Below are positions 21,644-23,683 of a stretch of 64,000 nt of DNA, piece by piece. Numbering within the stretch: position 1 is the first letter of the stretch; each line of letters opens with the position of its first letter. Made by a program: the position numbers and the translations under genes. The notes below the pieces were generated by a model. It saw nothing but the letters and a program-made list of their open reading frames with translations. It was not told the origin of the DNA and ran no database searches. Source of the stretch: Ureibacillus sp. (lineage in GTDB: Bacteria > Bacillota > Bacilli > Bacillales_A > Planococcaceae); contig JAPSJC010000004.1 of NCBI GenBank assembly GCA_031178355.1, positions 1 through 64,000 of the forward strand, written 5' to 3'.

Positions 21644-21676
21644 ACACCTTGTGCATTTTTCGTACAAGGTGTTTTC
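21644..21676 (+). terminator. Terminator after yphF
   Basis: ACACCTTGT (21644-21652) pairs with ACAAGGTGT (21664-21672), followed by TTTTC. Confidence 0.7.
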
Positions 21677-21703
21677 ATATTCCAGGAATACGCTTCATAG
21701 ACT
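21675..21703 (+). promoter_or_regulatory. Probable sigma-E promoter for spoIVA
   Basis: TCATATT (21675-21681), a 14-base spacer and CATAGACT (21696-21703) fit the mother-cell sigma-E consensus as I recall it (ATA-containing -35, CATACAAT-like -10). The predicted start is about 21710, leaving just enough leader for the ribosome site at 21713-21720. Confidence 0.6.
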
Positions 21704-21727
21704 ATATTACGTAAAGGAGGAGCTACA

Positions 21728-23206
21728 ATAGGCCAAGAAATCTTTCATCAAATAGCAGAGAGAACTAATGGGGATGTATATATCGGTGTTGTAGGACCTG
21801 TACGAGTTGGTAAGTCTACTTTTGTGAAGAAAATGATGGAGTCAGTTGTGCTCCCAAATATTGTTAATGAAGAAGATCGCAAAAGAGCACTGGACGAGCT
21901 GCCTCAAAGTTCACCAGGTCCTGTCATTATGACTGCAGAACCAAAATTTGTTCCTGCACAAGGAACACAGATTACTATCGGGGAAAGTGAAATTCCTTTC
22001 CGCATTCGTTTTGCTGACTGTGTTGGTTACATCATTGATGGTGTAAAAGGTTACGAGGATGAGAATGGACCAAAGTATGTTCACACACCATGGCATACTG
22101 AACCTATTCCATTCCAAGAAGCTGCAAAAATTGGAACTGATAAAGTTATCCGTGATCACGCAAATATTGGTGTAGTGGTTACTACGGATGGTACTGTGAA
22201 TGGTATCTCAAGGGAAGCGGCAGAAGTAGCTGAGTCACAAATTATTGAGCAACTAAAAGAAATTGGAAAGCCATTTGTTGTGATTTTAAACAGCAATATC
22301 CCAACTCATAGTAATACTGTTGCTCTACGTAATGAATTATTCGAACAATACGGAGTTCCTGTCATTGCAATATCTATTGATCAGATGTCACTTCGTGATA
22401 TGGAGTATATTTTACAAGAAGCATTATATGAGTTTCCTGTAGAAGACATCGAAGTAGAAAAACCAGATTGGTTAGATGTTTTAGATCAGACTCATCCATT
22501 AAATCAAACATTATCTGATTCAGTTGGTAGTGTTCTAGATTCCATTACAAAAATTCGCGATGTTTCTCAAGCTGCAGAGGAATTAAAACAAATCGATTTC
22601 ATCGAGGAAAGTGCAATTGAAAGAGTAGATGCTGGATTAGGTGTTGCTACTGTAAGAATCACATTAAAGCCAGAAATCTACAGAGCCGTATGCAATGAGT
22701 GGTTAGATCAACCAATTGATACTAAGAAAGATTGGTTACTGTTTATTAAAGAAGCAGCCGAAGCGAAAAAAGCTCAAGCTAGATTCCGAGATGCGATACA
22801 GGAAGCAACAGAAAACGGCTATGGTGTTACACTTCCTACGCTAGAAGAATTTGAACCAAACGAGCCAGAAATGATTAAACAAAACAACTTCTATGGCGTT
22901 CGCATGAGAGCTACTGCACCATCATTCCATGTTATCAGAGTAGATATGGAAACGGAATTTGCACCATTAATTGGTACTGAATTCTACAGTCAACAGTTAT
23001 TAAAAGATCTTCAATATGCTTATAATCATGACCGTCAAGCATTATGGGAAACACAATTGTTTGGAACACCTTTACACGAAGTGTTAAAAGAAGGTATTCG
23101 TTACAAAATGAATTCTGTTCCGAAAAATGCGAAAACGAGAATGCGCCAAACAATTGAAAGAATGGTCAATGAAGGCGACCGCGGTTTAGTTACATTTATT
23201 ATCTAG
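21728..23206 (+). CDS. spoIVA: Stage IV sporulation protein A (coat morphogenetic ATPase), apparent ATA start
   Basis: SpoIVA is a self-assembling ATPase that forms the basement layer of the spore coat on the forespore surface and is needed for cortex formation. The Walker A motif is GPVRVGKST (about residues 23-31). The reading frame stays open back to TAG at 21698, but no ATG, GTG or TTG occurs in frame before GTG 21824, which lies after Walker A. The codon ATA at 21728 sits seven bases behind a perfect AAAGGAGG (21713-21720). It gives 492 residues, the length I recall for B. subtilis SpoIVA, with N-terminal IGQEIFHQIAERTNGD aligning to the known start. The C-terminus ends in GLVTFII. Confidence 0.93.
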   Translation: MGQEIFHQIAERTNGDVYIGVVGPVRVGKSTFVKKMMESVVLPNIVNEEDRKRALDELPQSSPGPVIMTAEPKFVPAQGTQITIGESEIPFRIRFADCVGYIIDGVKGYEDENGPKYVHTPWHTEPIPFQEAAKIGTDKVIRDHANIGVVVTTDGTVNGISREAAEVAESQIIEQLKEIGKPFVVILNSNIPTHSNTVALRNELFEQYGVPVIAISIDQMSLRDMEYILQEALYEFPVEDIEVEKPDWLDVLDQTHPLNQTLSDSVGSVLDSITKIRDVSQAAEELKQIDFIEESAIERVDAGLGVATVRITLKPEIYRAVCNEWLDQPIDTKKDWLLFIKEAAEAKKAQARFRDAIQEATENGYGVTLPTLEEFEPNEPEMIKQNNFYGVRMRATAPSFHVIRVDMETEFAPLIGTEFYSQQLLKDLQYAYNHDRQALWETQLFGTPLHEVLKEGIRYKMNSVPKNAKTRMRQTIERMVNEGDRGLVTFII

Positions 23207-23410: not shown

Positions 23411-23683
23411 GTGAATAAAACAGAATTAGTTAACTCTGTTGCTGAAGCTGCTGAACTTTCTAAAAAGGATGCTTCTAAAGCAGTAGAAGCTGTATTTGAT
23501 GCAATTCAAGATGCTCTTGCAAAGGGTGATAAAGTACAATTAATCGGTTTTGGTAACTTTGAAGTACGTGAACGTGCGGCTCGTAAAGGTCGTAACCCAC
23601 AAACTGGTATGGAAATCGAAATCGCTGCAAGTAAAGTACCTGCCTTCAAACCAGGTAAAGCGCTTAAAGACGCTGTTAAATAA
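23411..23683 (+). CDS. hup: DNA-binding protein HU (HBsu)
   Basis: This 90-residue nucleoid protein bends and compacts DNA as a dimer. It shows the HU signature [21 protein letters not shown] and the C-terminal ending [11 protein letters not shown]. The start is GTG 23411, eight bases after AGGAGG; an in-frame GTG at 23402 is part of the ribosome site itself. It is located between spoIVA and folE/mtrB as in B. subtilis. It is probably strongly expressed, given the ribosome site and terminator. Confidence 0.97.

Follow-up and report, generated by a model that had tools for sequence, protein, structure and literature searches.

An AUA codon behind a strong Shine-Dalgarno sequence as the conserved, probable start of spoIVA in Ureibacillus

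In the window analyzed here, i.e. the whole stretch of 64,000 nucleotides from a Ureibacillus genome, it is likely that fMet-tRNA initiates spoIVA translation at AUA 21728, a weak start that would be offset by a strong Shine-Dalgarno (SD) sequence and kept to limit SpoIVA synthesis. AUA is a start codon that bacteria use very rarely. SpoIVA forms the layer on which the spore coat is founded, and discussions of its synthesis usually center on sigma-E transcription and on quality control. The weak start found throughout the genus, together with recurrent weak starts in nearly all sampled families of Bacilli, points to a limit on coat nucleation at the level of translation that has been overlooked.

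Behind the in-frame TAG at 21698 the spoIVA frame continues with ACT ATA TTA CGT AAA GGA GGA GCT ACA ATA GGC and contains no ATG, GTG or TTG before GTG 21824, as the preliminary description had stated and direct reading of the sequence confirms. Its assignment of the start to an ATA seven bases behind the SD, giving 492 residues, also holds, both in the sequence and in the match to TIGR02836 (spore_IV_A), which covers profile positions 5-492 of 492 with 566.9 bits (cutoff 459.9). The protein read from ATA contains PF09547, PF20438 and PF20439 in that order, and the full-length score above the curated cutoff of this equivalog family, the Walker A motif and the three domains identify it as SpoIVA. 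Read from ATA, the predicted N-terminus is Met-Gly-Gln-Glu. The nearest relatives of the genome by SpoIVA are Ureibacillus species (91-92% identity). The longest call of the ORF lister begins at GTG 21824 (460 residues) and excludes Walker A, i.e. a start at this codon does remove the motif, as described before, and gene callers limited to ATG, GTG and TTG would cut SpoIVA short by 32 residues, among them those of Walker A.

Table 1. Features of the spoIVA locus, in window coordinates.
Feature	Position	Strand	Details and basis
Sigma-E-type promoter, predicted	21676..21703	+	-35 CATATT 21676-21681, 14-nt spacer, -10 CATAGACT 21696-21703
Shine-Dalgarno AAAGGAGG	21713..21720	+	Unvarying across 24 aligned genus rows
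SD-to-start spacer AGCTACA, 7 nt	21721..21727	+	Window sequence and genus alignment
Putative AUA start codon, spoIVA	21728..21730	+	25/25 genus genomes; sister genera near-cognate or weak at the same place
spoIVA coding sequence, 492 residues and stop	21728..23206	+	TIGR02836, PF09547, PF20438, PF20439
Walker A GPVRVGKST, residues 23-31	21794..21820	+	Absent from the product if the start is GTG 21824
GTG, codon 33, first canonical in-frame codon	21824..21826	+	Rejected start; codons 2-32 constrained
spoIVA stop codon	23204-23206	+	Window sequence

The comparison of this codon in close relatives, which the preliminary description had called for, gives a uniform picture. ATA stands at the spoIVA start site in all 25 whole genomes of Ureibacillus and relatives, a set that includes named species from independent assemblies, and is accompanied by the same SD core; ATG, a single transition away, is found in none of the 25. 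Named records with ATA comprise those of U. manganicus, U. acetophenoni, U. sinduriensis, U. galli, U. aquaedulcis, U. chungkukjangi, U. terrenus, U. xyleni, U. thermosphaericus and U. massiliensis, plus several still filed as Lysinibacillus. The third position is variable in 92.4% of the spoIVA codons across the 24 aligned genus sequences, 11 of the 186 window codons ending in A are invariant, and so are 2 of the 29 all-Ile columns, the start codon being one of these two. The block TAAAGGAGGAGCTACAATAGG is nearly invariant as a whole in the same 24 rows, not the start codon alone. Judged from these alignments, the ATA is a weak start that has long been kept in the genus and reflects no sequencing error or harmful mutation. 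It lacks an upstream canonical start in frame, is conserved across species and follows the extended SD AAAGGAGG at a spacing of 7, i.e. it has the sequence features of the near-cognate start class.

Two options had been considered in the preliminary description, and the conservation of ATA bears out the use of AUA and, together with a coding constraint that is still intact, refutes a damaging point mutation from ATG. An error or recent mutation of this kind could be suspected given that the source assembly is a draft of 158 contigs and 76% completeness (the window lies on contig C116), but this reading is hardly conceivable when all 25 independent genus genomes share the codon. It is also very improbable that translation starts elsewhere, i.e. 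at GTG 21824, the choice of the canonical ORF lister that yields 460 residues without Walker A, or upstream via another frame or a longer transcript. Across codons 2-32 the third position varies in 24 of 31 columns and the amino acid in 5 of 31, so that this stretch is under coding constraint and GTG 21824 is ruled out as start. In the 20 codons upstream of ATA the three positions are variable to a similar extent (13, 15 and 16 columns), which argues against an upstream start, and the in-frame TAG (21698-21700) is located inside the predicted -10 box, so that the transcript should exclude it.

A sigma-E-like -10 element (CATAnAnT/CATAnATT) is present at -32 (or -30) in all rows of the window genus, and the -35 element is CATATT or CATAAT in nearly all of them. 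The promoter would be of the sigma-E type, an assignment that rests on the known consensus, with a transcription start predicted by the usual spacing. The predicted spoIVA mRNA would begin ~18 nt before ATA, leaving a leader too short for another start. A hairpin masking the start was rejected, as no structure in the leader was clearly beyond that of shuffled sequences. An upstream open reading frame ending at a TAG that overlaps the AUA (ATAG) was dismissed as well, having no visible start codon near the SD.

Within the family the codon at the aligned site differs between genera. The window genus and genus g39 have ATA; g42, nearly all sampled members of g13 and Viridibacillus have ATT; Lysinibacillus proper and g4 have TTG; and Sporosarcina, Rummeliibacillus, g5, g11 and L. 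odysseyi have ATG. On a protein tree of 64 rows this amounts to at least 8 changes among ATA, ATT, TTG and ATG, with ATA and ATT spread over Ureibacillus, g13, g39 and g42 and, separately, Viridibacillus. Of 40 genomes from 29 other families of Bacilli, 27 have GTG at the aligned start, 7 TTG, 5 ATG and 1 CTT, the CTT genome probably starting at a nearby TTG, i.e. about 35 of the 40 use GTG or TTG. Two of the starts compared are ambiguous: G125 (locus L200) carries a GTG one codon upstream of ATA and may start there, and L179 has an ATG one codon upstream of GTG. Around 24 of the 29 families are non-ATG, for which a binomial estimate by family gives about 1e-10 against an assumed baseline of 25% non-ATG starts, a rough guide that ignores phylogeny. 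On these counts weak starts are a habit of spoIVA, and the rarest kind is that of the Ureibacillus lineage. Compensation of weaker start codons by a stronger SD was rejected, since the mean SD duplex energies show no such trend (ATA -12.0, ATT -12.8, TTG -12.4, ATG -13.2).

The ordinary initiator tRNA, with anticodon CAU, would form Watson-Crick pairs with the first two bases of AUA and be mismatched at the third, and the perfect AAAGGAGG at 7 nt as well as an unstructured leader of ~18 nt from a sigma-E-type promoter may assist initiation, which is nevertheless expected to reach only part of the rate at AUG. In S. aureus, which belongs to the same class, AUA and AUU codons preceded by an extended SD reach about 10-30% of AUG in reporters, with ccpN and cvfC1 at about 10% and ccpN at up to 30% in rich medium (PMC13009471). 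A weak AUA would cap the amount of SpoIVA. This protein forms polymers, driven by ATP, on which the coat is built and which are under the surveillance of CmpA and SpoVID (PMC13317604). We infer that AUA initiates in vivo at a low rate and that selection has favored low output. It is plausible that the weak start limits the amount of SpoIVA, a reading supported by the recurrent weak spoIVA starts across Bacilli and by the S. aureus reporters; the ATG in some sporulating relatives (Sporosarcina, Rummeliibacillus, L. odysseyi) counts against it, as does the absence of a trend between SD strength and start codon.

AUA may also be the start without being kept for low output, i.e. it may be an inherited weak start that is good enough because of the strong SD, or its A may be otherwise constrained at the nucleotide level. 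The near invariance of the block around the codon would fit this, as would hbs, which has a conserved GTG though it is not thought to be weakly expressed, so that a conserved weak start alone is no proof of low output; its product HU is an abundant protein. However, neutral third positions are saturated and yet none of the 25 species has made the single A-to-G transition to ATG, independent moves to GTG, TTG, ATT and ATA in other lineages suggest that weakness itself is kept, and selection favors AUG genome-wide (PMC5622118), all of which makes this explanation unlikely. Still less probable is a regulatory role in which IF3 rejects third-position near-cognates, and falling IF3 or changed mother-cell ribosomes open spoIVA translation on time. 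A similarly doubtful version would have the AUA or AUU of spoIVA and the AUU of infC tie mother-cell coat nucleation to IF3 level or ribosome modification, SpoIVA being made only when fidelity drops. Such regulation would be in keeping with the ATT start of infC in the same genomes, with the rise of AUU initiation in E. coli on loss of 16S C1402 methylation (MraW), with the effect that MraW exerts via cmpA on the B. subtilis checkpoint for SpoIVA (PMC13317604), and with the response of the S. aureus ccpN AUA to medium (PMC13009471), but most Bacilli use GTG or TTG for spoIVA, i.e. first-position mismatches. Initiation at AUA with limited SpoIVA output is the reading we prefer.

A recoded initiation by an initiator tRNA with a UAU anticodon was rejected, as all 29 matches to the initiator anticodon arm in nine genomes carry CAT, in a search pattern that allowed any base at the first anticodon position only; the incomplete genome of the window itself gave no match. 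On both strands of that genome 31 distinct AAGGAGG-N5-9-ATA sites were examined, and spoIVA was the sole long frame without a competing canonical start, which speaks against a chance arrangement; this census was a pattern search, and among 41 listed matches with a weaker SD 11 had no locus of their own, most of which were left out. The corresponding pattern of a strong SD and ATT yielded one convincing gene, encoding an ArAE_1 aromatic-acid exporter. Based on these patterns, near-cognate starts appear rare but real in this genome, with no general relaxation. The exporter gene (PF06081/PF11728; L281:1517-2479, on contig C119 of the same assembly, G000, from about 1551) has its ATT behind AAAGGAGG, and its orthologs in seven genus genomes, including that of the window, carry ATT in six cases and ATA in one.

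By its sequence features spoIVA joins a known group of conserved near-cognate starts that includes infC, ccpN and cvfC1. Like spoIVA, infC, which encodes IF3, combines a conserved third-base near-cognate start (AUU or AUA) with a strong SD; by homology it starts with ATT (ATT-AGC-AAA-GAC-ATG) in the family genomes read (loci L220-L228), and with AUA in S. aureus (PMC13009471). The product of infC regulates its own gene, whereas the coat ATPase encoded by spoIVA has no known role in initiation. The S. aureus genes ccpN (AUA) and cvfC1 (AUU) share the conserved near-cognate start and the extended SD (PMC13009471), but S. aureus does not form spores, the two products are a vegetative regulator and a small protein, and the rate of these starts has been measured, whereas spoIVA is a sporulation structural gene whose start is read from sequence. 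The spoIVA genes of other Bacilli likewise combine a weak start with a strong SD, although GTG and TTG are canonical alternatives recognized by gene finders and the AUA and AUU of Ureibacillus lie outside the usual set. In E. coli, the near-cognate AUU start of pcnB limits a protein needed in small amounts, but this gene belongs to a different phylum and has a different function. In the open-access literature we found no earlier report on spoIVA start codons.

The next gene downstream is hbs (HU; window 23411-23683), with GTG 23411 behind GAGAGGAGGTGA. Nearly all family members shown have retained this GTG, ATG occurring only in U. terrenus (L013), and the start chosen by the ORF lister, GTG 23402, falls inside the SD. 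No spoIVA match was obtained in the listed genomes of genera g7-g10, g12 and g40, which is consistent with loss of sporulation. In three genomes of genus g2 (G025, G084 and G099) spoIVA is present as fragments with in-frame stops, i.e. as a decaying sporulation gene, and a fourth genome of this genus (G067) retains a full copy. One genome has a full spoIVA and, in addition, a shorter SpoIVA-like match (G275:C1:1256002-1256913; 165 bits, open frame of 335 residues), possibly a paralog of the ATPase part of SpoIVA.
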